Origin: Sialis fuliginosa | Lineage: Eukaryota; Arthropoda; Insecta; Megaloptera; Sialidae | Direction of reading: 5' to 3' | Assembly (NCBI GenBank): GCA_961205875.1 | Contig: OY540817.1 | Location: 5,553,001 to 5,617,000 of the forward strand | DNA: 64,000 nucleotides | Shown: positions 20,920 through 50,500 of the stretch, piece by piece | Layout: each line of letters begins with the position of its first letter | Numbering within the stretch: position 1 is the first letter of the stretch | Position numbers and translations under genes: made by a program | Notes under the pieces: generated by a model | What the model was told of the DNA's origin: nothing | Seen by the model: only the letters and a program-made list of their open reading frames with translations | Database searches by the model: none

Positions 20920-23900
20920 GTAAGTCATATTTTCCAACAAACAATTTTTTGTCGCAAAATAGTTTTTTTAACGAAACAATTTTTTGGGGAATTGTATTTA
21001 ACCCCTCTCTGCCCTGAATCCTTACTTGAATGTGTTTTATGTTATTTGTGGACTTTAAATAATAGGTGTACTTACTTCGTGAAAAACTTTGAAATTGATT
21101 TTCTAATAATAAGAGAAGTAAAAATGGAAATTTGAAAGAGTTATGGGTAAAAAAATATCTCTCTTTAAAAAAATACAGGTAAAAATATGAAATTAAAAGA
21201 TATTTATTTTTGCAACAACGAAAATAAAGGTTACTGAAATAAACTAAATAATAATTCTAGACATCGTATAATTGCAAAAAAGGGGGAAAACTTCAGTTCT
21301 TTTACTGCAGTTATGTTTAAAAATAGAATATATTTCTTATGAATTCCTAAAACTTTATAAAGGAGATACACATTGTTTTTAATAATTTATAGTATATTTC
21401 TGCGAACATTTATGATTTCTTACATTTGCAGAAACTTGGCAAAAGTCAACAAGATAATATATATAGTACATGCATATATAAGTACATAGTCTATATATAC
21501 ATAAGTTTAGTTACAAAAGTTTTATGTAGTTACCTATATATGTAATGAATTCCATATACATCGTTCCATTTTTAAAATAGTTCGGTTTTATTCATTTTTT
21601 GTTAATTTCAATTTTAACATAATTACAACTTAAATAAAAATAATATCTAGGTATTATAAGGTACTGGAACCAGCCTTGAACGCTTTAAGAGCAAGATGTA
21701 CTGTTTTTTAGGATTGATGGGCTTCGTTTATGTAATTTTCATGAACTACCTCTTTATTAAATCAATTTAATTAGCAAAATCCGCAAATATAGTTTTTTTT
21801 TATTATTTTGTTATTTTTTTCTTCAGTAATTAATAAAGTAAAACCAGTAAAGGGCACCTAGTGTAGACATTTGCTAATGATTACAAAATGATAAGTACTA
21901 CGACATAAAAGTTATAAAATACAGAATCGTAAAATTTGAAACGATGTAAAGCAGTTGCTATGATAATAAATAGATTACACTTATAATTAGTTTATATATC
22001 CACCATTTTGGCACCCATTGACCGATTGTCATCAAATTAAACTATGGATCTTGGCTTCTGGGTGTAAGCGGCGTCGGTTTGGTCGTGTTAAAGGCCAACG
22101 TTTCGTCACACATTGCAGTGGACATCTTCAGAGCTCTTTTAGAGTTAAGAGTCTACAGATTATAATTATGATTCAGTAATGGCAGTATGTAATCAAATAT
22201 CAAGTATTTCTAATTTAGTGCATTTAATTAAACAAGTGTCCAGCACAGGGGTATTATCCAAGACTGGTGCCAGTACCTTATTCATATTTCATAGAGTACG
22301 TCATGATTCTAAATCAACCCCAGTAAATATGACGTCATGTAGAAAACAATACATACATATTTTACTTCGTGCTACGGACCGTGAGATTTATAAATGAATA
22401 TTTTGACAATTCGATATAGTAATTTTAAAAGGGGGGTTATTTATGTATCTCATTTATATATAGTGGAACATATCATATTACATATTATGATGATGTATAG
22501 TGAATTAAATACATACACATATAGCAATTGGTGTCGAGAAAAAAAATACGAGATATTTCTCATGTAAAAATTAACTTATATAAAATATTTTTTGGGAATG
22601 AAATTTTAATAAATAAATAAAATAATGTTAAAGATTAAAATCTCAACTTTTTAATGATTTGTCAAATTTAACTTTTATTCATTTTTCACCAAACTAAAAA
22701 CAAAAAAAACTGTATTTTTTATTTTTGAGTTCCAATTAAATTTTAAAAAATAATAGGAAAAAAATCAGACATCAAACATAAAAAAATATTTTACAGCTAA
22801 AATGATTTTTTGAAATCCATGTACGTTTACAAATTAAAAAAAAAAAACACGTTTTTTTTACTTGCTTTAAAATCATACAGCTCCAAAAAAAAAATTATTA
22901 AATATGAATTTGCAAAAAATCTAAAAAGTAGAGGTTGCAATTTTTATTTACTATTATTTCTACCATAATTACAGAGCAGGCATTGAAAAAATTGTCCTCT
23001 TTTTCTAGCAATATTTTACATTAAAAAAAAACTTCATAGAGATACAAAAATCTCCATAAACAAAACGATCAAATAACTAAAAACCCCATACCCCCCCCCT
23101 TCTTTGTGCGCATTGTGTACGGCCGTTACGTAACCATATGTCGCGCACAATGTCGACGTGCACTGATACAAAATGGCGTATCGCACAACCAAGAAACGGT
23201 ACATTTAGTGTCGGCCACAACGAACCGTGGTCGTGTGTGAGGGCGAGCATCGCGTCCACCGCACAGCTGGCCGACTGGACTCAGTATGCGCCGGAACGCC
23301 AAGACAGTGCCGGGGTGGAAAATATTTCATAAAATAATTTTCATTTTTAAATTTGTACAGAAAATTATTTTTACTAAAATGAAGGTTATGATTTTGTCAG
23401 TCTATATAAGCTAGTTGGAAAATTCAAAATGGCAGTCATGAGATACTCTATTGTTTTTACACGAAAAATTTTTTTTTTCACTTATCATGATGGGTATCCA
23501 ATTAAAGGGTTTTAAAAGACGAATTCAAAAATATAGCAGGAAAAATGTATTTTATTTTTATTCGTTTTATATAAGAAGATATACGTAAATTGTTCACTCT
23601 CGATATTACGTATTACTTACTCTTCGTTTTGACAACTATGTCAAACCCACCCTAGTTGTAACCACTAGTCGACGCTATTATCGCGCACGCTGCGAATTGT
23701 AAAACACAACAGTGCGCATGCGCAGTTGAAAAAATACTGAACGAAAGGGGAGCGGGGGTGAAATCGCGTAATTTGTCGTTAGAACAAGCTGCTGCACACG
23801 CGATCGCGCGGCTAAATCGCCAGTGTGTATCTCTTTTGCGATTTACATATAAAACAATGTAAAATTAATGTACGCGATAGTCGTGCTGCTAAAAGTCGCT

Positions 23901-26900
23901 AATATGTAAAGGATCTTAAGGCCTCTATACTAGCAGCGGTGCGTGAGCTGTATTCAGGTGAGGCCATGCGAATTGCTATCATAGATCAAACACATTCGGA
24001 TTTTGTCGTGTCTTCCGAAAGGGTAATTCTATGCGATACGGAATATGTCGAACGTGTCTGATCTAAACATAAAATGTCACTGGACTCACATGAATATAGC
24101 TCGCGCACCGCCACTGCTCTATACACCATCCAATCTTCAGGGCCGATTTGTCAGGAGGTTAGGTATAGGCAAATCGGGCCGACTTTTCTCGGAATAATCG
24201 GCCCGATTTGCCAATACACGACCCAATCTGCAGTACCCACACTCTTCCTCCCGACAAATCGGCCCTGCAGATTGGGTGGTGTATAGAGGCCTTTAGAATG
24301 TATATTTTATTTTACAATTTTACATGTAACAAATCTATCAATACCGTAGTCTTATTAGAATACATTTATTTTAATATCTGAGTAAAATTAACAACCGCCC
24401 CTGTGCATATACTACAGAAGAGAGGAAGGGGGTACGGGGGTGCGATGCTGGGGGTGGTGCGGCGTTGCTGTTGGCAACACCGCCGTTACATCTTGATCGC
24501 GTATAACGGCCCTCATTGGTTGCGGAAGACCGTTAAGGGTTTTATACGCGCGCGGACGTACGTGTGTGTGTAAGAGGGGGGGGGGGGATTTGTGTGTGTG
24601 TGTGTGTGGGAATTTTAAACGTTGGGGAGACACGGTTTTAATTAAAAGTACCGCGTAATTGGATTTTTGGTAGATGTCTGTTTGATAGGGTTAAATTTAA
24701 TAACATATTTATAATATGATTATACTTATTATGGGTATATAATTTTGATGTGAAATTTTAAGAGCAATTGTTTTTTTGTACGGGAAGAATTTCTGGTAAA
24801 TGTTTCTATTGAGTATACCGCAGAATAGTATGTCTGTGATACATTAGCATATATTTTACTCCTTATTATTTTTTTTCACTCTTATGCAGTGTTTACACCG
24901 AAAAAACAAAAAAAGTATAATAAACCCTATGCATTTTTAAATACGATGTGTTTTCAAACACCGTGTTGCTGTTTTGTTTTCTTTGGTCTATAAACACGGC
25001 ATTACATTCGGAGACATGAGAAGGGTTGAATATTTTTATAATTTTTCAATTTCATAAAAAATCACCCTTTTTATAATTAACTTATTTAAACCTACCTTTT
25101 TTAGAATGATGTAATTAGGTATGTCACACTCTATTCAAAACGAAATCTAACATGGATTTTGGAATATTATTTATTATTGATATCTAGCGCATTGGACCGG
25201 GTGTTACCCGGGGTTATAAATTTAATCTGTAATAATACATCTCTCTGACGATTTTTTTCGACTTCATGTAATTTATACAAAATACATATCTAAAAATTGA
25301 AACCCGAAATGAAATCTGTTCAGTAGTTACTGAGAAAATCGTGCACAGATAGACAGACAGATGCAGTGAGGGGCTTTGTTTTATACTATGTATAGATATA
25401 CAGAATGAATCATATGGAATAAACTTGAACAGTTGATCGAGAAAAATATTTTAAGCAAAAAAGTTATATAAAATTTGTGTCCTGTTGACCCCAACTGGTC
25501 TAAATAATCATTCGTTGAATCTGGAAATCAATAATACGTATTAATACTAAACCGCTTATCAAATTTTGTTACTGTATTACAAAGGGTTCTCTAGATATTA
25601 AATAAAAACTAATTTTGGGTAAAATTTTTGAAGATCTGTAGTTCCCTCACGAAGATTTTTCCGAACACATGTTCTTATAAACTTTTTTGCTTAAAATATT
25701 TTTCTTGATCAAGTTTTGTTTCACCTATAATATGACTCACTTATTATTATTATAGGTAAATATAGACGGCATTTTCCACAAAACAGAAATTTTTACTGGT
25801 TGTATTTCTACATGTTAACGATAATTAAAAAAAAATCGAATTTTATATCAAAAAATAAAATAAAAATATGTATTCATTATTTTCAAAAAATATATACAAG
25901 TATATCAATCATAATTTTGCAAAGCACCGCTCAATATAGACATCGACATGGACTATAGCATCACTTTGACATTTCGCAATGTGTGCATTTCACAACCCCG
26001 TTTGAATATCACCCCAATATAAAGTGTTGTACAATGGAACAGTCGTCCAATATTTACGTGGCATCGAACCTCTGGTCTTCCGGTAGCTAACCGAATGCAC
26101 TACTCCGTGGGTCTGCTCTACATGATATTCTCCTTTATTGCGATTATATTGACTAGCCCATTGGGCATTGATTGTAATAGAATTGACTCTAAATAATATA
26201 TACAGGGTGATTATGAAACTTGCAATAAAAATTTGTTTTAAATTAAAAAACATCTGCCAAGTAAATGCACTGTGCTTCCTCGTGCTAAATTCACCAAAGG
26301 TAGTTAATTTATTGAACAATTTAAATAAAAACCGATAGTGTTTATATAAATTGCCTGGAATTGGTTAATCATTTAATTTTTATACAGTTTTATTAAAAAA
26401 TATTAGTTCGAAATTTTTCTTAAAACGCATTTGATTATTTTTTTGTATATTTTTAATTTTTTGACAATTTCAATCTAAATCTTAATTTATGCAAATGTCA
26501 AAATTACATTTAAAACGTCAAAATGACATTTAATATGTCCAAGCAAATACCAATTTAGAAAAACAAAACACGATTTTTTAAAATAAATTGAGATAAATCT
26601 TTATAAGAGAATATTTTACAACATTGTAGACCCATATTATAGGATATTTAATGCTCTACAAAAAATATTCTATAAAATTTTCACGTATCTTCGATATTGC
26701 GAGGAAGCAAAAACATTTCGTTAGAATGTTGCTGTAAATATTTTGAAAATCGTTTTTAAAGATTTTGAGTAAATACATAAATCTATCAGTAATATGTGCA
26801 ATAAATTTACATATTTTTTCTTGGGTAAGCCAGGACCTACAAGAAAATATAAGAGTCCAAAAATTTGTTTTATTTACAATTATTATAAATTAAATTTCTA

Positions 26901-29505
26901 TGGATCTAAACTTACGGGACATCTGTATACATACGTCATTCTATTTGCAATATTTTTGTTTGTAACACTACTGAACCGATTTTGAAGTGCTTTTCACTAA
27001 TTTAAAGGCTAAATGGTAAAAATGATTTTTTTAAATATACACGGGCGAAACCACAGGAAATATCTAAAGTTCAGAAATATACTCTCAAAAACTTTATTTC
27101 AATAAAATTTATTTTATTTTAATAAATATTTCCAATGATACCTTTTAAAAAGATTAAATTGTCGTTTTCATTCCACACAGTATGCGCTAAAACACGCACA
27201 AATCACAGTGTAGAGAAATGTTTGTCCTATAAAGCTTCAATAGATTGGAATTTATCCCTCGGGATAAAGCTATACGTACCTCGGACACTTCAATTAAAAT
27301 AATGCAACTGACAACAAGTGTTTCGGATATACATATACGTCCCATTTTCGAAATATGGTATAATACCTATATTACATACATGCATACAAATAAACCTATT
27401 TTGTCTTTAGTTAATATAGTTCAAATACGTAATAAACATTTAAAATAATTGATTTTTATTTATTTTATTCATATTTTATGTATTTTTTTTTTTAATAAAT
27501 AAAATGAAAATCAAATTCGCCAAAAAATTTTAATTGCACTTTTTTAACTTAAGTTTGGTTCAACATTTACTATAATTATATCATATTTTATAAATCAAAT
27601 AGTTCAGTAGCTAGAAGGCTGTGATATATAGATGGATAGACACTGTGTTGGTTCCATTAATATTCCTTTTTTCCGATTTCGGTGTGGAATACTAAAAACT
27701 TTTTAAGTACGAGGGTTGCTATTTATATTTCTGGCCTTGGCAACATTGAGTGTTGCCAGGTGCCATCTTTCGTTTTTATTGGAAACTAGACATTATTGAA
27801 TATAACCTTCTTCAGAACATTTTGTAAATTGAGCGCGATTTGTGTTGTTTACATTTACTTAAAAAAATCATCTCGGGTAAAGAATGGAATAAAATCGTGC
27901 GGTTAGTTTTCATAACTTTCGACGTGGACTATCAAGACAAGAATTCGGTTAAATAAGATAAAATATGGGTGTCTTAAACCGGACACCCTGTATATTATAT
28001 AAATATATACCATTCGTTATTAACAGTAATTAATAATAAGTTGATAGAAGTCCAAGTAGCGACTGTTCCGGGCCAAGACAACAATATCAATTCAAGCTAA
28101 ACAGACAAAAGGCGACGGTGAAAACAAAGACAAACGTCTTAGCAACCGCTCGAATCCGGTCTCTTGACCACCGGACTCTAGTACGCCGGAACCGGAAATC
28201 TACCTTCCAGGCTCCGACGCTTTCCTGTCTCCGAACAATGTCTTTAACTGCGGAGACTCCTTTCTCTCGTGTCTAAAATCACTTATTGAAACAGGGAAAT
28301 TTCACATAAATAATCTTATATATCGGACAGAGCGAACGTTGTAAAAAGCTATGTGTTGTTTTTGATGAGTAATCGAATCGATATAGTATATTTAATTCTC
28401 TTTTTTTAACCGACTTCAAAAAAGGAGTTCTCAATTCAACAATATATATTTTTATGTATATTCTGATCAAAATAAAATTTATGAATAGCAAAAATAAAAA
28501 AATTAAAGCAATTTTAAACATTTGAAAACTCATAAAACTTTTAAAAATTATTTTTTTAAATCTAGTACACTTACAGATGTTCAGATGGTTTTAAAAACTG
28601 CTTTATTTTATACCCTTTCGAAAAACCTACATGAATTGGCTATTTTTGTTAAAAAAAACTTATATTTATCCTAGAACTAGCTGGGCCCACGCGGCTTCGC
28701 TCGCGTAGACTACGGAATTATTGTTTAGGATTTTTGAAAAATATAGTTTAATTAATTAAGTACAAACACGATTAGTTATTATTGTAATAATAATTTATCA
28801 ATACCTAAATTACCTAACAAAAACGAATCAGAAGAAAAAAGTACAAATAATTTGTGTTCTGTTTAAATTTAAATGTTAATTATTGAAAACAAAATTAACT
28901 CAAACGTCAGCCGAGGGACTCCGAATATCTACCGAACGTAAGCGAATCCAGTCTGATGTACATCGCTTCGATGCGGCACGACACCATACATTTAAAATGT
29001 TACCTTTATAAATATATTTTAAGATATTTTCTAAACTATACGACCAAATTGGATGCTGTAAATGGCAAACTATATCTACATTAAGTACTTATGACGATGA
29101 AATCATTTATTTCGATAAGGATTAATGTTTTGCAGGTCATAAGTCCATGTAAACAAAACCCAAATATTTTATGTTTTTTTTGTAACATAAAAGCAGTCAT
29201 TGTGGCTTAAATATAAAAGTTAGACATATCGTGTCGCTGACTTAATTGTAGAACTTTTGATTCTACACAATTCTTTAATACATTATTTTGTTCTATATTG
29301 AACGGTTTAGGCAGCGTATTACAAAACAGCGCGCCGACGGCAAAATTTTTTCCGACTTGATTTACTATTATCGTCACTGCTTTGTTGTTATGTTACCTAA
29401 CGTAAAAAAATATAGCCTATAACCTGGCCAGAGAACGTACCTATGAATTAAAAAAAAAAACTCGTAAATCGGATAAGTGGTTCTCGAGTGATAAGGCAAC
29501 TAACG

Positions 29506-29547
<42 letters not shown>

Positions 29548-32500
29548 GAGACGTTGAGCTTTATATATATTAAGGATAAGAAGATTCGTAGTATGCTATT
29601 CTAAATAAGTCATTAAAAACGTGATATTTTTTTAATATTTTTTATACTCAATGGACAGGATCATCCTTTGCACAGGAGGAGATATTATACTGTCCAATGT
29701 GTATAAAAAATGTTTGAAAAGTATCTCATCACGTTCTTAATGACTTATTTAGAATAGCATACTACGATCGACTCACTGTAAAAATGTAAAAATCATACTT
29801 ATTCTGGGATAAATGTAAGTATTTTTAACAAAAATAGCCAATTCATGTAGGTATTATGGTAGGTTTTTCAAAAGGGTATAAAATAGAGCAGATTTTAAAC
29901 CATCTGAACATCTGTAAGTGTACTAGATTTTATAAAATATTTTTTTAAAGAAATAATTTTACCAAAGTTTCATAAGTTTTTAAATGTTAAAATGACTCAT
30001 TCCACCTTCCTTTCTAAATATTCGTATCGCCGAACCAAACACCCTGTATAATAAATAAATTTAACAGTTTTTGAAGTCGGTAACGTGCCAAGCTAATTAA
30101 AAAACTTTTTGAGAAAGAAAAAAATTTAATTTAATTATTACATACTTTTTTTCAGTTTTTTTTATAATAAATATCTTTCTTTACAATTAAGGTGTTAAAA
30201 ATGAATGAATTGAAAATATTTGTCTAGATAATGAAATCTCCCTTAAACCGTTCCTGTCATCTATCATCTATTGTCTCTGCCCTACATTAACTCAATTGTT
30301 TATTTCATATCCATTCAAATTCACTTAACAACTATATTTCGAGACAATGAATATTGTTTTCAAATACAGAAATCTATCTGAAAACACAATATCCAATGTA
30401 CTCGGATACCCTATCGAAATAAAGCTAGCCGGGTTGAAAGGTTCACTAAACAACGATAGCTATTACAGCGCCTCTTTGAAATAACGGTCGCAACTAGGTG
30501 CGTTAAAAGGCCAATTGTATAAATGTCCAGTTGAATTAACTACTGTATGTTTTGTGAAAGCGTGTTCTACCTCCCAAATGGGATTTAAATCTGCTATTAT
30601 ATTAACAAGTTTCAAACTAAAATATGTGTATATGTGTTGATAAAATTAATGTAGTTTCTATAGTTTTGATTGGATTGTTTTTTTCTCTCTCATTGCAGAT
30701 GAAAATAGAGACCTGAATGGACATCCTGAGGATGATTATAAGAGACAAAAGTCGCAGTACAATGGAGACCAGTTATATTCAAATGTAAGTATTTTTACTT
30801 TCATAATATATCATATATGAAATACATATACAATAGTATAAGTGTATTTAAGCAGATTTTTTTTCGAATTCCGGATTTTGATGGATTTATCCATTTTGAC
30901 CTTCCCTGAATCCATTCTGACTATTTTCGCCATATCTGAAATCTTAAAGCAACCTTTCAACCGGAAATGGATGTTTACTGATGTCAATTTTGGAATTTTT
31001 AAAATTATTTTTGAAACGGTGCGAATTAAAATTGTAGATAGTATTATTATCTATAATTTAAAAAATAATAATTTTGAAAAAATTATATTTCACATGGTCC
31101 TTAACAGAGATAGGGTCAACTGGGGTAAAAGTGAAACAAAATACAAATCTTTCATGTTTTCTGATAGTTAACGATACAAATTCACACTTTAATTTTTTCT
31201 ACTAACATAGATGCGCTTATGAATAACGATTTTAAATACTTACGTCATTTGAACTGTACGATACAACACGGACTTTAAAAATGAAAAAAGTGTGTTTCAT
31301 TTTTAACCTCTAATTTGAGAAAAAGTGAAACAAGCCTCTAATAGAAAATATTTCTCGAAAAATTAAAAAAAAAGCTACAAAGGCATATTGTGGTATATCA
31401 ATGTGAAATTGAAACTTTAATTAATATCTGAGCTATACAGAAAGTTATTTGCAAAGAATTAAAATTTAATGCACACGTTTTGACATCGACTAACAGGGAA
31501 ATCTGTAGGGGTGACACATCACTTATTATAGGTGATTCATATTTTCAGGTCACTTTAACAAACCTTTAATGATGATGTCAGTTTTTATAATTCTCCTAAA
31601 AACAAATTAGTTTTTTAGTTGCAAGCTTGTTTCACTTTTACCCCATTTTTTTGGTGTTTCATATTTACCAAATTTAATTCACACGTTTTGACATCGACTA
31701 ACAGGGAAATCTGTAAGGGTGACACATCACTTATTTATAGGCGATTCATATTTACAGGTCACTTTAACAAACCTTTAATGATGATGTCAGTTTTTATAAT
31801 TCTCCTATAAACAAATTAGTTTTTATGTTGCAAGCTTGTTTCACTTTTACCCCATTTTTTTGGTGTTTCATATTTACCCCGCTTGACCCTACATAATATG
31901 CAAAATAAAAAAATTAATTTCAATTAAGAAAAACACTACTTTTTGTTACCATAAACGAAAATTGCCTGCTTGCCAAAAATAAAAAATATAAATCTATTTT
32001 AAAAATTTCAGCTGTGGCCGAGCAAATGGAGTATCAAAGACGAACACAAGCTACTCTCAGAGTTAGGCGGAGGTCCAGGTTCCGGCGGTGGTGGTCCGGG
32101 TGCCGGTGCCGGCGGGTACTACGACACACCGGGAGGCGGTTTCCCGCCACCCGGAGCGACATCGGCAGCCGACTTATACGACACAATCAACACAATGAGC
32201 CAGACACAGAGCGGCATCTATTCGACACCTATAGGAAGCTCATTAGGTTTGTAACTTGGATAGCATTTGTTGCATTTGTTGCATTTTTGTTTTGTTTGTT
32301 GCTACATGCATTTGTTTTGTGGTTATTATATTATATAGATCAGTGCCGGATTGACCATTTAGCAGGAGTAGCAAATGCTACGGGCCCCGTGAAAAAATAT
32401 CTCTTATTTACTACCTACAGTAATTAATAATTTCATTTTAAGGTTTTCTATTCGATTTTATAGAAAAATCGATTTTTAAAACTCCGATCTATGATTTTTT

Positions 32501-35500
32501 AATCGATTTTTCTAAATTTGCCCACATTAAATTGAGAAATGTTTGTCTGTAAAAGTGATGTTTTATTACACACTCCTCAAAAAAGTTAAGGGATAATTAA
32601 AAAAAAAGCAAAAAAAATTAAATTTTCAAACAGTTATATCTCCGCGAAAAAATTATTAGATTTGCATGATACAAAGCTCATTCAAAAGGGGGGGAGAGTG
32701 ACACTATCGATTTCCACCCCGGGTGTCACCCCTCCCCCCCCCCCCTCCTATACTCTATTTCATTTAAAAATGCAGTGGTTGCCGTGGTTTTTGACGGTAA
32801 AATGCACGATTCGTACCATTAAAACCCAGGCAAACACTGCATTCTTAAATGAAATAGAGTATAGTGACGCCACTGCCAAGGGCCTCTTTGTAACATTTGC
32901 TACAGGCCCCGCGCTGGCTAAATCCGGCACTGATATAGACTAGGCGCATTATAGATATAATTAAATAAAACTGTAATCAATTAGAGTATTAATTAACCTA
33001 CGAAGTACCGACAGTGCAAAAAAATTGGTGATGTTTTAATTCGATTTTTTTTTTAATTCAATAAATAATTTATTTTATTTTTATTTTACTGAAATTAAAA
33101 TTTGATCAACGGTAGGTTCTGGATCATTAACACCTTTGGCCCCAATCAGTATGCAGGAAATGAAATTAGGGGGTTCAAATGTTTTGGATTCATCTTTATC
33201 ACCATATCATACAGGTAAGTTTTGAAAACATCACCAAATTATATTTATTTTTATCAGATGCATGTTTATATTTTATCAATGTTAATTGTTTATTGATTTG
33301 TGTTTGTAATTTAATGTTATGTTGCTATTCTTAAACGTATTTTGAAATCCACCTAAAAAAAATTATTTCGATCAAAATATTTCTCGAAAAAACATGGGCA
33401 AAATTCAAAACGCTCTAATCGCGGTAAAAATAGTCATATATCAATTTAAAGATTGAAATCTCTACTTTCCAATTATTTCTGCAAGTTTTGATTTTGTTAA
33501 TTTTTTATAAATTTATGGAATTATATTATGTAAAGCGAACAAAATTTTTTTTAAACATTTTTAATCTTCGTTAGGATACAAAGGTTAGAAAAAAAATCTA
33601 AAGCATGTACATTCAGCTTCAAATTGCTTTTTATTACCACAGAATTATTTGATATTTAAGCCTAAAATTAAATATTGAACTATGGGATACGAATAAAAAT
33701 TATCGTCGAAAAGTAAAGACAAAATTCAAGTGTAAAAATCACCGTATATTAAATTAAAGTTTAGAATCTCTAATTTTCAATGCATTTTACAAATAAAAAT
33801 TTTTTTACATGCTTACTTAATAATCGTAAAAATCAATTAAATTTCAATTTACAAAAATCTTTAAAAAGTATTTTTTTATTAATACCAAAATTAGAGAGTT
33901 AATGCCCCCATTTTATCAATATTTTGACCCCTTAATTATTTCAATAAACCTAAATTTAAATAGTCAATCAAGACAGTACAAAAAAATATATACAAAATTA
34001 CAACATTATAATAAATCCATTGAAAGACAAAAATACCTGCGTGCACTTGGCCTAAAATTCCGCGTACTATTTTTACGTAGTATATTATAATTTCTTATTT
34101 AATGTGTAATTTAATTCAAATCGTTTATGCGCGTACATAACATTGAATTGTTTCTTTTGTTTATAATTTATCATGCATCTGTCCTTCCCCACTTCCCATA
34201 AATTTGTTTGTATAATCAACGTCTATGTGATTTTGTATGTTAATTATTCTTTTACAAACCGGCAATTAAAAGTAATTTCATTGTTTCATTTTATTATATA
34301 AAAACGAGTAAATATTATAGATTCGATGCTATATTTTTTTAGTTTTTTTTTTTAATGAATTTGAACATAAAATATTGCAGAAAAAATTGAAAATTTACAT
34401 AAATTTTGAGAGCTTCTACGGGTCGTGATAATTTTTTTCCAAATTTAATGATTTTTCTTTAATTTGCATTTTTTATAATTGCTGTACGACTATTTTTGAT
34501 TTAGTTATTTGCAATCAAAGTATAAACCACACTTTTAATTTTGAACGTAAAAAAGATACCTAAAAAGACAAAGCTGAAAGTATTAACTTTATAACTCGAT
34601 CAAAAATGGTTCTACAGCGATACAAAAAAAAGCAAATTGAAGAGAAACCTCTGATATTAAAAAAAAACATTCATTAGATTTGGTCAAAAATAATATCACA
34701 CCGCGTAAGGCACAATAAAGATATAATTATTAAAATTTCCCACCACCAAATTCCATGTAAATATATATTAAATATATTTTTGTTTGTTTGTTTTTGTTTC
34801 CGTTTCGTCGTGCTTGTTTGTGTTTTGTGTACGTCTGTGCATGTCCGACAGACACAAACTCAGCGTACAGTGGCGTGGTAGGTGTGGGGGTCGTGGACAG
34901 TGGCGGCTCGCCAGGTTTGCCTCTAGCACTCCCGGCCGAGCCGCCGCTAGCTAGAGGTTCCCCTGAACCCCCAAACACCGACCATGGAGCCGGACCTGGA
35001 GGACTCACCGTTCTGCAACCGTCGTCCAGTTCTGCACTTACCCCCTCGGCGTATTCAACAATGCTACCTAGTTTCGGTTACACAACAGGTTTGTTTTATT
35101 TTATACTAACTGTTAGCCGCGACTTCGTTAGGTTAGTAAAAACAACACCATGAAGTTAACTAGTGAGATTTCCGTTATGATATAGTCGATAAAACGGATT
35201 TTTAGTTTCGCATTTGAACGCTAGATGTCTACACCAAAAAACATAACTTTCGTGCATACAAATGTCACATTTATAATAAATTTTTCGGGATACAAAATAG
35301 CCTATATCCTTCCTCAGGAAACAAACTATCTCCTTGTCAAATTTTATCAAGATCAGTTCAGTGGTTTAACCGTGAAAATGTAAGAAACAGACAGACATAC
35401 TATCGTATTTATAATATTAATATGAATGTCCTTTATACAAAATCGGAAATATCTCAGTTCCTATGCAAGATAGGAGGTAGATATTTCCCCCTAAAACTCC

Positions 35501-37336
35501 ACTCTTATAGTATTTTTCCCGCCGGATCGAATAAGACCAATTACAACCCTTCAGGGACGAAATATTGATCAGCGATATCGATATGTACAAAAATCATATA
35601 AAAATTAGCTTAACTTTTTTATGCTATTGTATTTAAGGGTTGAGGGATGAAGGGCCTTTTGTATCCCGTTACGTAATCTTGATTTTCTACGATTAGTTCC
35701 GGAGATATTGCTACTGTGTTTAACTTGTTTGAAAAGTGAAGATAAAATTACGCTTTTGTGCAATTTATGTAACACTATTTTTCTTATTTTTCAGGTGGTA
35801 GTACTGTGGTTCCTGGATCAGACTACGCGTATAGTTCTGCATACAGCCAATATGGGGCAGCAGCGTATGGGACATATGGCTATGGTGGCGCCTCTACTGG
35901 TCTCCTCAGTAAGTAAACAGTGAGTATAATTCTCTGGACCTAGCCTTGGACATGCACCTCTATTAATTATATTAAAAAAAATAATGTTGTTTAAGATTCG
36001 GTATTAGATGAATGGTAAAATAATATTCGAAATATTTAAATTTCTATTTTTTTTTTGTATCCTAAGGGTGCAATTTCGTACATGATTTTTGATACATGAT
36101 GCAAGGCTATCAATGACGTATTTTCCATTTCATTTCTTTTCTATTTTTTATTTCTTTGTGGCATAAAAATATTTTTAAAATCATTTTAAAAGTAAATGGA
36201 CTTTTAAATTAAATTATGATAAGTTTTAAATTTTTCGCAATATTTTGATGTGAATTTAGACATTTGGGTATAGGTCGTGTCAATTTGATCATTCTACTGA
36301 CCAACGGTTTGTCGTACATTGCAGTGGCTATTGATTAAATAGCTTGCAATGTAAAAAACGACCTATTCAACTCAATTTATATTTAATTAAAAGCCAAATG
36401 TTATTTTAATGATTTTAAATATTTTTATTTATTTTCTCTTCATTCTTTAATACACTTTTAATTTTAATTTTTAATATACTTACTAAGATAAGATAAACTA
36501 TAATGCTCTATAATCTATATTATTGAAATTTTCAAAATTCAAATTCTCTTATCTTAGTATTATATAATAATATAATTAATATTATTATATTAAGTGATTC
36601 TATAGGTTTTATTATTGCTTTTAAATTGTTGACGGATTTGAAATTAGCGTGTCAAAATTTATATAAGGGATGTATAATTTGTATAATACATTGACAAAAA
36701 AAAATTTACGGAAAATTTACATTTTTTTTCGATTTTTGACCAAATTTTTATTCGATTTTGTTGCAATTTCGTAAACTAATACTCAAATCAGTTCTAAGGG
36801 ACATGTATTTTTTTATATGAGTGATAACGGACATTTAAGGGGTGTTATTGGACTTTTATAAAGATAAATTTGGTCGGACTGACAAAACTGCCAAGATATG
36901 AGCTGGCCGACCGAAAGATTTAAAAAGTACATTGTTATAGCTTTAATTTGGCATATAATTCAGCCCTAAACTCGATTACGTATGTTTTGGGGGTTGACGG
37001 CTCCCGGTCTATATTTTTGTTGTAGATTCTAGAGCAATAAAACAAAAAAGAATTACTTGATATAAATTACATAATTTCACACACGTATATTCAACAGATC
37101 TCTCTATCTCCATAGATACACCTTACTACTACTGCAACAATGATATCCCCACTACGTCGTCGTCGGGAATCCACGTAGAGAGTTCTTCCGGGACCGGGTC
37201 GGGGTTCGATCAACCGACAAGCCGTTCCCCGCTCGCGGCAACTCGAGCTAACTCCCTTGCGTCTGCCAACTCTCCCACAGGCAGTGCTTGTCTGAAAACT
37301 GAAACAATAAACGCCGCCGACCTCTACCTTGCCTGA
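20621..37336 (+). CDS. sv: Pax2/5/8 transcription factor (shaven / D-Pax2-like), 3' seven exons
   Basis: Sequence-specific nuclear transcription factor; in insects Pax2/5/8 acts in sensory-organ and eye support-cell development (family knowledge). Exons read here: 20621-20919, 30699-30784, 32012-32246, 33116-33214, 34852-35088, 35795-35908, 37116-37336. They give about 430 residues in one continuous frame. The first exon opens with RIVRNKAAEKAKH, the end of a paired domain, followed by a Gln/His and Gly linker, the octapeptide YSINGILG (Groucho-binding in this family) and a basic KRKR. Then come WSIKDEHKLLSELG, LTPLAPISMQEMK, a Ser/Tyr/Gly-rich transactivation region (SAYSQYG) and a final exon starting near TPYYY, like the SPYYYS of vertebrate Pax2/5/8. 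The paired-domain exons lie outside the window. Exons are CG-richer than flanks. Symbol given by family resemblance to Drosophila shaven. Confidence 0.92.
20920..21655. other. First part of the 9.8-kb Pax intron, nothing recognised
   Basis: AT-rich, no repeats shared with the rest of the window and no supported coding. The exon frame stays open for a while past the donor, but composition drops sharply to AT-rich after GTAAGT. Confidence 0.5.
21656..22280. mobile_element. GGTACTGG-family TIR element, complete copy
   Basis: Ends TAAGGTACTGGAACCAGCCT and GACTGGTGCCAGTACCTTA are inverse complements. The interior matches 9757-10245, plus an extra block at about 22046-22136 containing GGCCAACGTTTCGTCACACA and TTGCAGTGGACATCTTCAG. 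Related blocks of that insert occur at 6548-6627 and 36246-36345, so it is probably a separate repeat inserted here. 625 bp, no coding. Confidence 0.7.
22281..23916. other. Intronic DNA; CG-rich patches 23100-23330 and 23680-23830
   Basis: The first half is AT-rich and featureless, with a TGACGTCA at 22330-22337. From 23100 a 230-bp patch is much richer in C and G with many CpG dinucleotides, followed by a second patch containing GTGCGCATGCGCA, an NRF1-type palindrome, and CACGCGATCGCGCGG. Neither patch carries a convincing splice-bounded reading frame. They are candidate regulatory elements or old element remnants in the Pax intron. Confidence 0.35.
23917..24295. mobile_element. TIR MITE (AAGGCCTCTATAC ends) with internal palindromes
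   Basis: Ends TTAAGGCCTCTATAC and GTATAGAGGCCTTTA are inverse complements. Inside, CAATCTTCAGGGCCGATTTG and its inverse CAAATCGGCCCTGCAGATTG form long subterminal inverted repeats, with a further GGCAAATCGGGCCGA / TCGGCCCGATTTGCC pair. About 380 bp, no transposase. Target duplication not clear. Confidence 0.7.
24296..24886. other. Intronic DNA with CG-rich, TG-repeat patch at 24390-24630
   Basis: A patch with CpGs, a G-run near 24580 and a (TG)n tract at 24590-24608. There is no coding evidence. Simple-sequence content makes a regulatory call unsafe. Confidence 0.4.
24887..25004. mobile_element. Short MITE, copy 2 (GTTTACACCG termini)
   Basis: Left end GTGTTTACACCGAAAAAACA, right end TTTGGTCTATAAACACGGCA. 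Shares TTTTCAAACACCGTGTTGCT with the inverse of 3069-3201. About 118 bp. Confidence 0.6.
25005..26265. other. Intronic DNA with a possible tRNA-like SINE head
   Basis: Mostly AT-rich. Around 25190-25370, CTGTTCAGTAGTTACTGAGA and GACAGACAGA resemble the dispersed repeat at 17080. On the minus strand near 26115-26055, GTAGTGCATTCGGTTAGC followed by GAGGTTCGATGCC resembles a pol III B box with a weak A box, so a tRNA-derived SINE fragment is possible. I could not fold a proper cloverleaf, so no tRNA is called. Confidence 0.3.
26266..26711 (-). repeat. Hairpin-ended dispersed repeat, copy 3 (internally deleted)
   Basis: Begins at the GTGCTTCCTCGTGCTAAATT end, passes through AACCGATAGTGTTTATATAA, the 20-bp ATGTCA units and TTCTATAAAATTTTCACGTA, and jumps directly to ATCTTCGATATTGCGAGGAA. 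It lacks the central GGTCGGATGG and TCTG blocks of the 5127 copy. Non-coding. Confidence 0.6.
26712..27709. other. Intronic DNA, no gene recognised
   Basis: AT-rich. 27170-27360 is somewhat more balanced and unique in the window. 27595-27670 (AGTAGCTAGAAGGCTGT, GTGTTGGTTCCAT) repeats 17390-17445. No supported coding. Confidence 0.45.
27710..27970 (+). mobile_element. Mariner-type DNA transposon, 5' fragment
   Basis: Starts after TA with CGAGGGTTGCTATTTATATT, a typical mariner end, followed by a 5' leader and the first codons of a transposase-like frame at 27884 that read NRAVSFHNFRRGLSRQEF between two stop codons (codon 3 and just after). Mariner transposases commonly begin with a stretch like RAVIFYNFRRGL (family knowledge). 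The element ends abruptly before 27990, so it is a truncated, inactive remnant in the Pax intron. Confidence 0.65.
28030..28275. promoter_or_regulatory. Unique CG-balanced block in the Pax intron
   Basis: About 220 bp of balanced composition between AT-rich stretches, with CCGGAACCGGAAAT (paired ETS-type GGAA cores), CCGGTCTCTTGACCACCGG and no similarity to repeats in the window. No splice-bounded open frame. A conserved intronic enhancer is plausible. Confidence 0.3.
28407..30081. repeat. Foldback element with AACCGACTTCAAAAA ends, split by a Helitron
   Basis: Outer ends TAACCGACTTCAAAAAAGGA and TTTTTGAAGTCGGTAA pair, as do TACACTTACAGATGTTCAGA (near 28566) with TCTGAACATCTGTAAGTGTA (near 29905), ACATGAATTGGC with GCCAATTCATGT, and TCGTAGTATGCTATTCTAAA (29586) with TTTAGAATAGCATACTACGA (about 29747-29766). 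Without the 900-bp Helitron at 28677-29576 the palindrome is about 775 bp. No coding. End sequence matches 4791-5040. Confidence 0.7.
28677..29576 (-). mobile_element. Helitron-like non-autonomous element, copy 3 (longest)
   Basis: Minus strand: starts TCCTTAATATATATAAAGCT with a long (TCTG)n head (CAGA units at about 29505-29548 on the plus strand) and ends GGGCCCAGCTAG followed by T. The flanks A and T restore the uninterrupted AGAATAAG seen in the opposite arm of the host palindrome. So it inserted at AT without target duplication, as Helitrons do. 900 bp, no Rep/helicase coding. Confidence 0.8.
30082..30698. other. Intronic DNA before a Pax exon; balanced patch 30390-30560
   Basis: The patch, unique in the window, lies 140-310 bp before the exon at 30699 and includes AGCTAGCCGGGTTGAAAGG and AACGGTCGCAACTAGGTG. 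Possible intronic regulatory sequence, no motif set decides. A pyrimidine tract TTTTTTTCTCTCTCATTGCAG (two overlapping parts) precedes the exon. Confidence 0.35.
30699..30784 (+). CDS. sv: Pax2/5/8 exon: acidic linker
   Basis: 86 nt between TCTCTCTCATTGCAG and GTAAGT. Entering phase 1, it encodes DENRDLNGHPEDDYKRQKSQ, then YNGDQLYSN, ending on a codon boundary. The acidic-to-basic stretch sits where vertebrate Pax2/5/8 begins the partial homeodomain region. Confidence 0.9.
31111..31891. mobile_element. TIR element in the Pax intron with an internal 208-bp duplication
   Basis: Ends TAGGGTCAACTGGGGTAAAA and TTTACCCCGCTTGACCCTA are imperfect inverse complements. AAAGTGAAAC words recur at both sides. 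Positions 31473-31680 and 31681-31888 are a near-identical direct tandem repeat (unit 208 bp, starting ACACGTTTTGACATCGACTA). No transposase. Fills most of the intron between exons 30699 and 32012. Confidence 0.65.
32012..32246 (+). CDS. sv: Pax2/5/8 exon: WSIKDEH and Gly-rich region
   Basis: 235 nt, acceptor AAAATTTCAG, donor GTTTGT (a weaker donor). It encodes LWPSKWSIKDEHKLLSELG, a Gly/Pro-rich run, then AADLYDTINTMSQTQSGIYS and TPIGSSLG, ending in phase 1. The reading frame joins the flanking exons without stops. Confidence 0.9.
32341..32932. mobile_element. hAT-like MITE 94 bp downstream of a Pax exon
   Basis: Ends CAGTGCCGGATTGACCATTT and AATCCGGCACTG, with flanks ATATAGAT (32333-32340) and ATATAGAC (32933-32940). 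It contains a nested inverted repeat, TACTCTATTTCATTTAAAAA (about 32751) and its inverse ending ATGAAATAGAGTA (about 32862), possibly a second element. 592 bp, no transposase. Confidence 0.8.
33116..33214 (+). CDS. sv: Pax2/5/8 exon: LTPLAPISMQEMK
   Basis: 99 nt (33 codons), phase 1 to phase 1. It encodes GSLTPLAPISMQEMKLGG, then SNVLDSSLSPYHT. The acceptor TGATCAACGGTAG lacks a good pyrimidine tract, but the frame match, the donor GTAAGT and the family-like peptide support it. Skipping would keep frame. Confidence 0.88.
33215..34851. other. Pax intron, AT-rich; palindromic repeat at 34390-34720
   Basis: 33215-34380 is AT-rich without a recognisable element. 34390-34720 belongs to the palindromic family of 6680-7015 (GCTGTACGACTATTTTTGA, then CATAACTCGATCAAAAATGG-like arm). 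The last 60 bp form a strong T/G-rich tract before the next acceptor. Confidence 0.5.
34852..35088 (+). CDS. sv: Pax2/5/8 exon: Pro/Ser/Gly-rich transactivation part
   Basis: 237 nt (79 codons), phase 1 to 1. Acceptor GCATGTCCGACAG, donor GTTTGT. It encodes DTNSAYSGVVGVGVVDSG, a Pro/Leu/Ala-rich stretch (LPLALPAEPPLARGSPEPP) and SSSSALTPSAYSTMLPSFGY. CG-rich relative to flanks. Low-complexity composition is typical of the activation region in this family. Confidence 0.9.
35106..35430 (-). mobile_element. Short Helitron-like repeat, reverse, 17 bp after a Pax exon
   Basis: Plus-strand ACTAACTGTTAGCCGCGACT is the inverse of the CTAGT-type tail. It continues with GGGATACAAAATAGCCTATA, CCTTCCTCAGGAAACAAACT and TTATCAAGATCAGTTCAGTG, and ends near CGTATTTATAATATTAATAT. 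It lies just inside the donor of the preceding exon. No coding. Confidence 0.6.
35795..35908 (+). CDS. sv: Pax2/5/8 exon: Tyr/Ala/Gly-rich activation part
   Basis: 114 nt (38 codons), phase 1 to 1. Acceptor TTCTTATTTTTCAG, donor GTAAGT. It encodes GGSTVVPGSDYAYSSAYSQY, then GAAAYGTYGYGGASTGLL. If the donor is not used, the frame stops two codons later (AGT AAG TAA), giving a possible short C-terminus. Confidence 0.9.
35909..37115. other. Last Pax intron, AT-rich
   Basis: 36246-36345 carries the TTGGGTATAGGTCGTGTC / TTGTCGTACATTGCAGTGG block also seen at 6548-6627 and 22046-22136, an unclassified dispersed repeat. 36480-36600 is an AT palindrome-like stretch. Nothing else recognised. Confidence 0.5.
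37116..37336 (+). CDS. sv: Pax2/5/8 terminal exon with stop
   Basis: The acceptor CTCTATCTCCATAG precedes 37116. The exon reads TPYYYCNNDIPTTSSSG, a Ser/Thr-rich run, and ends LKTETINAADLYLA then TGA at 37334-37336. The TPYYY start corresponds to the SPYYYS motif near the C-terminus of vertebrate Pax2/5/8. An alternative in-frame acceptor 18 nt upstream (CAACAG before 37098) would add LSISID, but it lacks a pyrimidine tract. Confidence 0.88.
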
Positions 37337-40396: not shown

Positions 40397-40751
40397 CAGT
40401 GGCGTAGGAACGGGGGGGGTTTTGGGGTCGAAACCCCCCCCCGAAATTTTAAAATATATGAAATTAGTATAACAATTTGGAATTTTTGTGATAATAACCC
40501 GCCCCGAAATTTTTAATGCTGTTAAAATATGCGAAATAAATATAAAAATGTTGAACCAAATGACCTTTTTTTTTTTTTGATCATATAATAATTATAATTT
40601 TCAATCGTGTGACTTTTTTTTTTTTAGTCAATAAAAGTCATAATTAACCAAAATTTTTGCTTTTTCCATCAAAAAAATTTCGCATATTTTTTGGAATATC
40701 AACCCCCCCCCCCCCCCCCCCCCCCCGAAATTTTTTCTTACTACGCCACTG
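40397..40751. mobile_element. hAT-like MITE (CAGTGGCGTAG family), long copy
   Basis: Perfect 8-bp duplication GTTGGGCG (40389-40396 and 40752-40759) with ends CAGTGGCGTAG and CTACGCCACTG. Interior G run near the left end and C runs inside, including about 26 C at 40701-40726. 355 bp. Same family as 11107-11271. Confidence 0.85.
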
Positions 40752-40917: not shown

Positions 40918-41302
40918 TAAAGTGACCAGACGTCCCGGATTGCGCGGTACAGTCCCGGATTTGAGTTACCTGTCCCGCATCACAAAGTGTCCCGGAAAAC
41001 GTCCCGGATTAGACATTTATAACATTACACTATGACAATTGTGTGGTTTACAAAATTTTATTTACAAAAAATTTAATTTGAAGACCTTCTTTTTTAAGTG
41101 TATTGTTTATGTACAAAATAATTAATTTCAATTTGAGGACTGAAAAAAAAAGGTCTAGATTTTATTTAAACTGTAAAATGTAAATTTTATTTATTTAAAA
41201 TAAAATAAAAAACTGTATTATTTAATTATAAATATTTTTTCCTATGTGTATGTGGGGGTGGGAGGTGTCCCGCATCAGGGTTTTAGAATTCTGGTCACTT
41301 TA
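40918..41302. mobile_element. hAT-like MITE (TAAAGTGACCAGA ends)
   Basis: Perfect 8-bp duplication TCTATGTC (40910-40917 and 41303-41310). Ends TAAAGTGACCAGA and TCTGGTCACTTTA are inverse complements. GTCCCGGATT recurs four times near the left end. 385 bp, no transposase. Confidence 0.85.
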
Positions 41303-41480: not shown

Positions 41481-42088
41481 TAAAAAAATATTTTGGTACA
41501 ATAAAATCACGCAAGTTTGTTTATTATTCGTTTAAAATTTTTATGATACTCTGTACGTAAGAGTTACATAAATGTGTGTACCTTAAAATAACCTGTTTTA
41601 GCCTCCACAGCCTGGACTATATTACAATACATAGACAAAATTTGCTCTCGACAAAATAATCACGCGAACTATGTGAACTATCCTATTTCTAATAATCCTT
41701 GTTCTCAAATAATTTATCCTGAAATCACTGAACTATCTGATCTATCAATAGACACATGAAACAGCTCGCAAACCGCTATATAAAGTGTATTGCAAGAAAT
41801 TTTATACTTCAATTACGTAGCATCAAAGACCAAAGGTAAATGTTTTATTTTGAAAAACTGTTGTAGATAAACGCGATATTTATATTTTAAATGTTTCTGC
41901 ATTATCAACAATATACAGCGCCACCTATATCATTCCTCAGAACCAATGTCAGAACGTAATTTTACATGCATTTAGGATGATTTAGGATAGGACTTGAATA
42001 AAAGATGGCAGCATGCGCGATAAAAATCTTAGGTTAGAAATTCATAAAAAAATAACTAAATCAATTCAGATTTTTGACATTTCGAGCA
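41481..42088. other. Intergenic DNA upstream of the small gene
   Basis: AT-rich until about 41920, where a more balanced stretch with CAGCGCCACCTATATC precedes the gene. An in-frame upstream ATG at 42005 (AAAGATGGCAGC) opens a 10-codon uORF ending TAG before the main ATG. No TATA box is decisive. Confidence 0.35.
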
Positions 42089-42560
42089 ATGTTGCGTAGA
42101 AACCAATTATTATTAATATACGCTTTGGATGTTTACGGTTTTTTTAATAACCCCGAAATGTAAGTATCATATATGTTTACATTTACAAAGACAAAAGATA
42201 TATATTCTATCTGTTTACTGTAGTAGCAAAAAAATACTGGAGACTAAAGAGGAAGAACACATAAAAGCATTAAAAAATGCAAGAATCGAACAATGTCTCA
42301 AACTTGCCAATTCGAAAGGCGAAATCAATAAGCGAACGCGAATCGAACAATGGCTCCAACAGGTCGAAGAAGAACGAAAGCCTCCTCCGCAAAACGAAAG
42401 CAAAGCGAAAAGCCCCGTAGGCTTAAAAAAAATTGTAGGTTGATATTTTATTATGAACAAATTAATTCATTTACTACACCTGTTTTTGTTTTAGACAAAA
42501 CCGACTTCTTTGAGAAGAAGTGCACGATTATTATCAAAAAAACAATCAAGCAGTTCGTAA
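42089..42560 (+). CDS. Unrecognised three-exon gene, 115-residue charged/basic protein
   Basis: Exons 42089-42159, 42224-42434, 42495-42560. Donors are GTAAGT and GTAGGT; acceptors are TTTACTGTAG and TTTTTGTTTTAG. Introns are only 64 and 60 nt, and phases agree (AT|T, then a codon boundary). The protein starts MLRRNQLLLIYALDVYGFF. It continues with a helical, charged middle (KKILETKEEEHIKALKNARI; a repeated RIEQC/RIEQW word; QQVEEERKPPP) and ends in a basic tail KKITKPTSLRRSARLLSKK with four Ser, then TAA. There is no signal peptide or membrane span. Short coiled-coil character plus a basic RRSARL-type tail suggests a nuclear or chromatin-associated small protein, but I recognise no family. 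Codon use (CGA, GAA, CTC) and frame continuity across two introns argue for a real gene. Confidence 0.65.
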
Positions 42561-43139
42561 TTGTAATGAATTCAGTCATTAAATAGATAGATACATTAAT
42601 TTTTTTATATATAATATCAATTTACTCATTAATGGTGCATTTAATTATTAGAATTACAAACGTATTTACAATTTCCTAAACTTAAAAGTGTGATTACATC
42701 TAGAGAAAATTATCATTAACTTAGAGCCAATTTAAGCTGTTCCAAAATAGATAACATTCACTCTCATTATGAAATAAGTCGGTTTATAACCTTAAAAATC
42801 CTTGTGCAAGAAATACCTTAGTGTCGCATTTCCCGTTTAAATAAAATGAGAAAAGTGATTCTTTAGTTCTAAAAAATTACGTATTACTGAATTGTGACAA
42901 CTGATAAAAATTTTTGAGGGCATTATTTTATAGTATTTTAGAGTAGTAATTTGTTCAACTTTTTTTAACATTAATTTTAATTATTTGGCTCCTGATGAGG
43001 ACTTCTTGTAAACTCAAACACATATTTATTGATATTGTTTTTTGTGGTTAAAGTTTATACACACTTAAACTAAATGTATATTTAGTTTATACATTTAGTT
43101 TAAGTTTTTACGTTTTTTAGTAGTAAATTTTAACAAAAA
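42561..43139. other. DNA downstream of the small gene
   Basis: AT-rich. There is no canonical AATAAA directly after the stop; variants such as AATATA occur near 42610. A TTTAGTTTATACATTTAG-type palindrome lies at 43060-43105. No other gene. Confidence 0.4.
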
Positions 43140-43550
43140 AAATCCTTGCAACTTTTGATTCGCTGGTTTAGTAGATTTGACTTTGCATACACTTTTGTAG
43201 AAAATTTAATTTTCTACAAAATTATCATTTGACTTATTTTTAAAAGAAACAGTTTAACTGTGAGAATCTTTTAACCGTAAATCTAACTTTGAATCTCTAA
43301 TTTTTTACTAATTGAATTCAGATACTTGACTTTATGAACGCTTTTGTAGAGATTTTATTTCTCTACAGAATTATAATTTAACTTATTTTTGTAGATGCAA
43401 CAGTTTAATAGTGAGAGTTTTAAATGTAAATTTAACCTAAAAAAATTACTTTGAATCCTTGTAACTTTTGACTTGTTGAAGTCAGGGACTTGACTTTGTG
43501 GACACTTGTAGAGAATTTAATTCTTTACAAAATGATATCTTGAAAAAATT
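43140..43550. repeat. Three diverged tandem repeats of about 150 bp
   Basis: Blocks beginning GAATCTCTAATTTTTT / AATCCTTGCAACTTTTGATT / AATCCTTGTAACTTTTGACT recur at about 43143, 43300 and 43456. Each is followed by GACTTTG.ATACACTTTTGTAG-type and AACAGTTTAA.TGTGAGA-type sequence. Unit similarity is moderate, so the array is old. Non-coding. Confidence 0.6.
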
Positions 43551-44207: not shown

Positions 44208-44530
44208 TAGGGTTGCCAAGTGTTCACTATTTGAGCAGACAGTCCGCTTTTTTCACATTTTTTATCACAAAATAGTGGACATTTTTTTTATTTAAATGCT
44301 TTATGATGAAATGGTACGTAATCTAAAGCTGTACAGTCTAAGAGAATAAGGATAGGAGAATTTACAGAGCGCAAATTTGTCATACCAAAGATTTCATTGA
44401 AGCATTATATTATGTAAATACTATTTTGCTGTTCTAATTAAATAAAAAAAAAATTATTTTATTTTTTACTACTTAACCTCCCCCCCACCCAATTGTCCGC
44501 TATTTTTTGGAAGCAGACCTGGCAACCCTA
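44208..44530. mobile_element. hAT-like MITE (TAGGGTTGCCA ends)
   Basis: Ends TAGGGTTGCCA and TGGCAACCCTA with flanks ATGAGACC (44200-44207) and ATGGGACC (44531-44538). Subterminal AGTCCGC and GTCCGCTATTTTTTGG blocks. 323 bp, no transposase. Confidence 0.8.
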
Positions 44531-47541: not shown

Positions 47542-50500
47542 TTAACCTGAAGATACCGCTTCATCGAATGCTTCTTCGTGTTCCGATCTATCCAACATAA
47601 AACGAGGTAATGTTACCCCAAATCTTTTACTGTAAACTGGTTTCAGTTCTGAAGCAAATGCGCCATCTGATCCTTCAATTTTAATATCAGCTGATTCTGG
47701 TACTTTCTCATTATCGACTGAATATTTTTGATCATCTATTTTTCGTTTAACTGGGGCTTTTTCATAAACATAATGTGTTCCACTTGAACTTGTTTTTTGT
47801 TCAAAATTAGGCCGTTTAGTTGAATATACTGTCGGTAAGGTTAAAGGTAAAGTAGCGGTTCTTGATTCGGTTGATGTATCTTTTGCAGACTTCTTCTTTT
47901 TAGGTTTCAGTTTTTTAGATTCTTTAAAATTTTCGTATATTTCGTCATCTGAAATTTCAGAGGAAGTTACTTTCTTAAAGAACTTCTTTCTTTTTAACGA
48001 TTCAGTTGTTGTGGTGAATGGGGCACTGGTTGTAGTATGGGGTGTACTATTTATTTTTGATTCCGATGTTTCTTGTCTTGATTCAGAACCTTCTGGATTA
48101 GGATCAGATGAATATTTTTGCATTTGGTGGTACGCCATGTGCTTTTTTTCTGGTTTTGACTCTGTTACATACATGCACTCTTCATTTTCTTGGCCTTTTT
48201 TATCAGCGCATCGATAGCAAGTTAGTTTCCCTTTTGTTACTTTTTTACAATCAGATCTGTCTTTTTTTGCAAATTCGGCTAAAACTTCTTCTACATCTTT
48301 TTTGGTTTCTTCGGCGAAAAACTTTGTTGGGGTTTTAAATCCATGTTCTTTGTTTTCAGATGCTTCACCATGTTCTCTCTCATCTTCCTTGATTTCAGCA
48401 TATTCCGGAAACAGTTTAGAAAAGTAATCTTCGTATTTACCAGGGTTATAACCGAAATCTTCTTTTACATTTTCTTCTTTTTTATTATTGCGTGTATCTG
48501 GACTTCCATATAATTCTGAATCTAATCCATGTCCACTATCGTATCTTTTTTGAGATTCTCGTTCCTTAGTTTCTTCCACAAAATGTTCAGGAATATCAAA
48601 AGATTGTTCTGAATACTTCACTTCGTCTTGCTGTTTTTCTTTTACATCATCATCTTCTTCAGAGTAACGTTTGCGATACGTATTTTTGGGAGTATCTTCA
48701 TAATCTTTATCATTCACATTACTGAAGCGACGGTTACCCCTGCTTCTTGTCACAGGTCTTTCTTCAGATGCTTGCTTTTCTCTTTCATCTGATGGTTTAC
48801 CGTTAAACTTTCGTTCGTTGACGTAAGCATACTGTTTTTCGTTTGGGGCAGATCTATATGAACACTGTTCAGATTTTGCACCTGTTTTAGGATTCTTACA
48901 AACTTTACAAGTTGCTGTTTTCTTTTTGATCTCTTCACAAACATCCCCGTCTTTGTTTACTGTCTTCGTTTTACGATTTTGTTGTCTACCAGAATGTGAA
49001 ACAGTTGGTTTGGATTCAGTGCCTTCTACTGTTTTTTCATCGGGTTCATCATTACTGTTAAATTTCGATTCTTTAACATATGCGTATTTTTTTTCATTTG
49101 GTTCGGATGTATATGAACATTGCTCATAACTTCCACCGGTTTTTGGGTTTTCACAAACCATGCATGTCATTGAATCCTTATGCACCTTTTTACATTTATC
49201 TGAACTCTTCAATTTTTCTGACTGTATTTCAGAAAAACTTTTTTCTTCATCGGCGGAAGGATCGAAAGAAAAATACTCTGGACCGAATCGATATTTTTTA
49301 TTCTCTTCTTTCTCAAAACTAGAAAAATCAGGTGCTCTATAGTGAGAACGTTCACCTTCGAATTCCTCAGGTCTTGATTTGTATTTCTGATTTTTCAATT
49401 CGCTAAAATCATATTCTGATTCTTCATTCTGATCGCTTTTCTTTGTATATCTTTTATACCTGAAAGATGTTGCTGGGGCATTTCCGGTACTGTATTTCTC
49501 AGCAGATCCTGCAAAATATTGTTTGTTGTTTGGATCTGATTTATACGAACATTGCTCATAAGTTTCTCCAGTTTTTGGTTCAGTGCACAAGAAACAAGTC
49601 ATTGCATCTCGTCTAAATCTCCCATTACTAATATCTTCCGCAGAAATATCTTTTTCAATTCTTTTACAAATCTTCCTTCCAACAATCTCCGTATCTTCTC
49701 TATTTGCTTCTGACTTGAGCTCTGATAAGATACTTGCAGCTGTAGATTCTAATTTACTAGGATATGAGGGTACATGAGGAGAAGATGTACTCAAGATATT
49801 AGATGGTTGAAAACTGTATTTTTGATAAGACACTGGGGCAGATCGATAATTGCTTTTTAAATCTTCATTCGGGTAGTATGAAGGTTTAGCACTTAAAGTA
49901 TTCAAAGTTAAAGGTAAAGGATACTGCGTTTTCCCTAAATGAGGTTCGCTTGGACGGTTTGCTTGCTGAGGAATAAAATCTTGATCAGATTCGTAAGAAG
50001 ATGTTGCATAGGAAGGAGCAACATAACCAGATCTTTGTTCAGACGATTCAGGCGAAGAATTTTGTATATTTTCATGATACTCTTTCAAAGGACTGACTTC
50101 TTCATAATTTTGAATAGAAGGTACTTTATGGGATACGTAACTCGGTCCAGGTTTATTGTAGTATGGTGATGATGAAAATAACTGCTTGTTTGTTGATCCT
50201 TGATCTAAAGATAGAAAATCTTGTGGTTTGAAGCCAGCTTCCGAAGAAGCACTTGCAGCATCAAATACTGAGCGGTAGTAATGTGGTGGTACAAAGCCAG
50301 TTTGATTAATAACTGACGTACTTGCTTGTGCTCCGAAAGGATGATCGACAGTTGCCTGTGCTGTGAATGGACTAGACGCTGCTCCGAAACCTAAACAATA
50401 AAAACAAATTTTATAGGTAATTTGAATTATATTTTGTATATTATATAAGTTGTACTTCTTTAGCGCTCCGTGACACATTTTTAAATGAGCATTTTACGAT

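Follow-up and report, generated by a model that had tools for sequence, protein, structure and literature searches.

Two described protein families were compared with the small gene product considered here. The first is CDC26/APC12 of the anaphase-promoting complex (PF10471), which like the candidate is small and helical; human CDC26 presumably starts with MLRR, the four residues with which the candidate also begins. The genome has its own CDC26, however, on another contig (G000:C10:17877894-17878022, in an 81-codon frame holding MIRRPPTSIELKLDDLQEYD), and the 43 residues matched there do not align to the candidate. As this is the single match in the genome, and as the candidate itself has no Pfam match, its identification as CDC26 (ANAPC_CDC26) was rejected. 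The second is the N-terminal region of INCENP (PF12178): a basic tail and, faintly, the pattern F..N...LE..EE presumably occur both there and in the candidate. Assignment to INCENP_N found no support, the candidate being without a Pfam match at E up to 10. A search of the genome with the INCENP_N family gave no match, nor did it give one in any control, and so it says nothing on absence of the family from the genome.

The locus lies in a 64,000-nt stretch of the Sialis fuliginosa genome, referred to here as the window, and all coordinates are those of the window unless a contig is named. The results presented below support a compact multi-exon gene with a product outside the families searched, and in our view the candidate is probably a real, single-copy and very short protein-coding gene. 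Because its product matches none of these families, it is probably an ordinary small gene. Short multi-exon genes are readily missed by annotation, and a literature search found no paper on this one.

Gene model and splice sites

A preliminary description of the window had proposed three short exons, separated by tiny introns and joining in phase from an ATG to a TAA. Spliced translation bears this out: the exons listed in Table 1 encode 115 aa followed by TAA, the joined model is without a stop or frame break, and both introns have GT-AG ends at the coordinates described. The reading frame at the locus stays open and in phase over two GT-AG introns whose lengths are common in the genome, as in a spliced coding gene. 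It had also been said that no single frame shows the gene, which is true of the complete model but not of exon 2, which is contained in a 108-codon open frame (42117-42443).

Table 1. Features of the candidate gene and its immediate flanks (window coordinates)
Feature	Position	Strand	Remarks
AAGATGGCAGC	42002..42012	+	Exact match; its 3' end lies 77 nt before the start-codon A
Exon 1	42089..42159	+	ATG start; encodes MLRRNQLLLIYALDVYGFFNNPE and two bases of the following codon
Intron 1	42160..42223	+	64 nt, AAT|GTAAGT...CTGTAG
Exon 2	42224..42434	+	Charged two-helix segment (predicted) and beginning of basic tail
21-nt direct repeat, copy 1	42283..42303	+	Encodes RIEQCLK
21-nt direct repeat, copy 2	42340..42360	+	Encodes RIEQWLQ; 57 nt downstream of copy 1, 90% identical
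Intron 2	42435..42494	+	60 nt, ATT|GTAGGT...TTTTAG
Exon 3	42495..42560	+	Encodes TKPTSLRRSARLLSKKQSSSS, then TAA
ATTAAA, possible polyadenylation signal	42578..42583	+	Just past the stop codon; no chance control

For comparison we took 18 introns from this genome's chaperonin genes, and scored splice sites with generic consensus matrices that were typed in and untrained. The lengths of the two candidate introns are common in this genome: eight of the 18 chaperonin introns measure 58-62 nt and 12 are no longer than 86 nt, a range into which 64 and 60 nt fit. The chaperonin introns were picked with the help of the consensus, so that their scores are biased upwards and their lengths less strongly affected. 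Compared with this set, donor 1 and acceptor 1 both rank above 12 of the 18 introns and acceptor 2 ranks above 14, whilst donor 2 ranks above only four.

Other splice choices are present in the sequence. Intron 1 has a second acceptor 3 nt downstream (42226) that keeps the phase, and intron 2 has a second in-phase donor 18 nt upstream (after 42416); these would give variants of 114 and 109 aa, respectively, and one of 108 aa if used together. Retention of intron 2 closes the frame at a TGA (42441-42443) and gives a product of 96 aa, exon 3 being optional in the sequence.

Coding signal

Codon usage was derived within the same genome, using 60 pieces that match chaperonins or mitochondrial carriers (of the matches listed, the 60 whose DNA was cut), together with the 983-codon frame of the window. 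Eight of the 60 pieces contained stops, and for these the longest open part alone was kept. The background was formed by the trinucleotides of those parts of the window taken as non-genic, and general amino-acid frequencies were entered by hand.

With general amino-acid frequencies, the 71 codons of exon 2 score 11.9 bits. Quartiles for the 88 training pieces, each of 70 codons, are 11.4, 17.3 and 22.8 bits, which places exon 2 near the lower quartile. With trained frequencies it scores 11.0 bits, just under the lower quartile (quartiles 11.8, 19.7 and 27.5). Ranked among the 89 open stretches of at least 70 codons in the window, the best 70 codons of the exon-2 frame come ninth (general) or seventh (trained), and most of the stretches that outrank them appear to lie in, or antisense to, stretches resembling neighbouring genes. 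Exon 2 is also CpG-rich, with an observed/expected ratio of 1.55 over 42225-42434 vs 1.12 across the window.

The outer exons are another matter. Exon 1 alone is approximately neutral (-0.8 bits with general and -2.4 with trained amino acids) and is carried by the joined model only; exon 3 alone (0.5 and -1.5 bits) is not long enough to be scored for coding by itself. It is therefore possible, if somewhat unlikely, that the gene is real and the model partly wrong, with exon 3 unused (96 aa), a start in an upstream exon or other splice choices from among those given above; since this too holds that a coding gene exists, it overlaps with the reading that we prefer. Use of the donor after 42416 gives the model a slightly higher score than the three-exon form as described (12.9 vs 11.6), and a simple gene finder never selected the three-exon form, taking instead a one-intron, 96-aa form (42089-42443) at intron costs of 14 and 18 bits and a form running from 42005 to 42443 at a cost of 10. 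Its training was partly mis-oriented, 23 of the 60 match pieces being read antisense, and its picks ranked tenth, sixteenth and tenth in their lists, amid several doubtful models of similar score. Three points speak for exon 3 as modelled: acceptor 2 is strong, the tail of the protein stays basic and serine-rich over the exon 2/3 junction, and on the + strand of 42301-43300 neither AATAAA nor ATTAAA occurs before 42578, beyond exon 3.

Occurrence by chance

The length of the open frame is by itself unremarkable, because the window has 30 frames of at least 90 codons. Over 70 codons, the proposed frame of exon 2 scores 12.6 bits with no stops, and the other two sense frames score 9.5 bits (four stops) and 5.3 bits (two stops), whilst the antisense frames range from -8.4 to -11.6 bits. 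As the other two sense frames are also positive, much of the exon 2 score reflects composition, beyond which the proposed frame is modestly preferred.

We also asked how often comparable models arise in locally shuffled strands. Under the strictest cuts (donor at least 4.6 and acceptor at least 6.7 bits, introns of 50-80 nt, products of 115 aa or more), neither strand of the window holds a two-intron model other than the candidate; among 60 shuffled strands the number of such models averaged 0.017, and none of the 60 held one with a lod of at least 11.6. These cuts correspond to the candidate's own weakest sites and were thus set from the candidate, so that three looser sets provide the fairer test; with these, 0/40, 1/40 and 2/40 shuffled strands reached a lod of 11.6, the loosest giving 2/40.

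That the locus makes no functional protein, either because the frame has stayed open by chance in intergenic DNA locally rich in A and G or because the locus is transcribed without coding, is in the light of these figures unlikely. The positive scores of all three sense frames of exon 2 would be in keeping with it, as would the lack of a family match in Pfam, NCBIfam and the PDB and the shuffled strands that equalled the score at the looser cuts (1/40 and 2/40), but phase, splice sites, length and coding score are rare jointly, with none of 60 and none of 40 strands matching them at the two stricter sets. Searches for RNA families and tRNAs found none in the window (the tRNA search being run with bacterial settings).

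Relatives and copy number

For the spliced product, no Pfam match was listed at E up to 10, a search in which the HMMER filters drop many weak matches, and the exon-2 frame had no Pfam match either. NCBIfam gave no match to the spliced product at E up to 10. Nothing significant was found in PHROGs (best match E 0.16) or in a sequence search of the PDB (best match E 0.31), and comparison of the exon-2 structure model with the PDB using Foldseek gave 21 matches up to E 10, of which the best had E 1.5 and none reached E 0.001. The statement in the preliminary description that the product cannot be matched to a known family therefore holds for the families searched (Pfam, NCBIfam, PHROGs and PDB). 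Close-relative searches of viral and prokaryote contig collections found 11 and 158 pattern-matching stretches, respectively, none of which was confirmed; this argues solely against a recent prokaryotic or viral source.

The locus is single-copy in the genome searched (392 Mb, 20 contigs), where an 801-nt query (window 41900-42700) found one place, in a search that skips simple repeats and very common words. In a search for paralogs, two of five genome matches fell outside the locus, on C14 (E 0.53, three internal stops) and C4 (E 2.5); neither is significant, and both are judged to be chance matches.

Derivation of the locus from a larger known gene or a mobile element, as a decayed or diverged remnant, is very unlikely, for although three stretches that were picked by eye for their short inverted ends are at most 2 kb away, the 41900-42700 region has one genomic place rather than several (simple repeats being skipped), neither the spliced product nor the exon-2 frame has a Pfam match, there is no PDB relative and the joined model is free of stops and frame breaks.

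Surroundings of the locus

Upstream of the start codon lies AAGATGGCAGC, which we take to be a possible YY1/Pho-like core-promoter or 5'-UTR element. The window holds two exact occurrences and four with at most one mismatch, and across 100 shuffles the mean was 0.92, with one of the 100 reaching four. As gene signals, this element and the ATTAAA downstream of exon 3 are weak evidence.

Paired-box exons are found on the same strand approximately 12 and 21 kb before the start of the window (C9:5540850 and C9:5532100; the window runs from 5553001). Within the window, the frame at 20508-21017, in a stretch without a Pfam match, holds YSINGILGI, presumably the Pax2/5/8 octapeptide. A Pax2/5/8 gene probably runs on the + strand as far as approximately 37336, with probable exons over 20508-37336, and the candidate would thus share its strand with a Pax-type gene and lie downstream of it, in the genome of an animal, presumably an insect.

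On the other side of the candidate, a frame of 983 codons occupies 47542-50493 on the - strand. It has no Pfam match at E up to 1. A Cys motif like TC..C..PKTG...EQCSY recurs in it several times, and its product is perhaps a secreted or cuticle-type protein. The three stretches with inverted ends, all picked by eye, are at 40397-40751 (CAGTGGCGTAG / CTACGCCACTG, with a long C-run near the 3' end), 40921-41299 (AGTGACCAGA / TCTGGTCACT, with 10 matching outer bases) and 44209-44529 (AGGGTTGCCA / TGGCAACCCT). The second of these looks like a small terminal-inverted-repeat element. Elsewhere in the genome, COX1 with 11 in-frame TGA codons is found on a separate contig; this and the paired-box genes are as in animals.

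The predicted protein and its possible role

The predicted product of the three-exon model is a basic protein of 13.3 kDa (pI 10.1) that contains the words RIEQCL, RIEQWL and RRSARL. Its N-terminus had been described as a hydrophobic helix, but residues 1-23 are only weakly hydrophobic (GRAVY 0.10). The repetition of RIEQ[CW]L is real, the 21-nt direct repeat in exon 2 being its source (Table 1). So too is the basic tail with RRSARL: this Lys/Arg/Ser segment, residues 79-115, has 10 basic residues and one acidic, and is basic and serine-rich on both sides of the exon 2/3 junction.

Structure prediction from the single sequence models the exon-2 peptide as two helices, residues 3-30 and 34-50. 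The model has a mean pLDDT of 76 and a pTM of 0.49 (the means of the five models range from 63 to 76), with block means of 88-93 over residues 11-40. One RIEQ[CW]L falls in the later part of predicted helix 1 and the other in predicted helix 2, a placement that an internal duplication might give.

These features suggest, tentatively, how the protein could act. The middle may form a coiled coil or helical hairpin through which the protein contacts a partner, whilst the Lys/Arg/Ser tail may carry the protein to the nucleus or to nucleic acid. The protein would then be a small nuclear adaptor, with a hairpin for partner binding and a tail for nuclear import or nucleic acid, a role that we propose only as a possibility given that it derives from composition and an uncertain structure model. 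The family to which it belongs may be lineage-restricted or fast-evolving, and would then lie outside the coverage of domain libraries. Rather more doubtful is the further idea that the candidate represents a new family of tiny nuclear proteins of this lineage, characterised by a part-duplicated hairpin (57-nt spacing) and a basic tail and possibly connected with chromatin or the spindle.

Comparison with known systems

If confirmed, the gene would add one small protein lacking recognised domains to the gene set of its lineage, and would be of wider interest solely if a conserved function emerges. It is best set beside orphan or taxonomically restricted genes. Lineage restriction, which in the case of the candidate is an assumption, marks the difference from such genes; the likeness is that the candidate is short and single-copy, has few small exons and encodes a product without a recognised domain.
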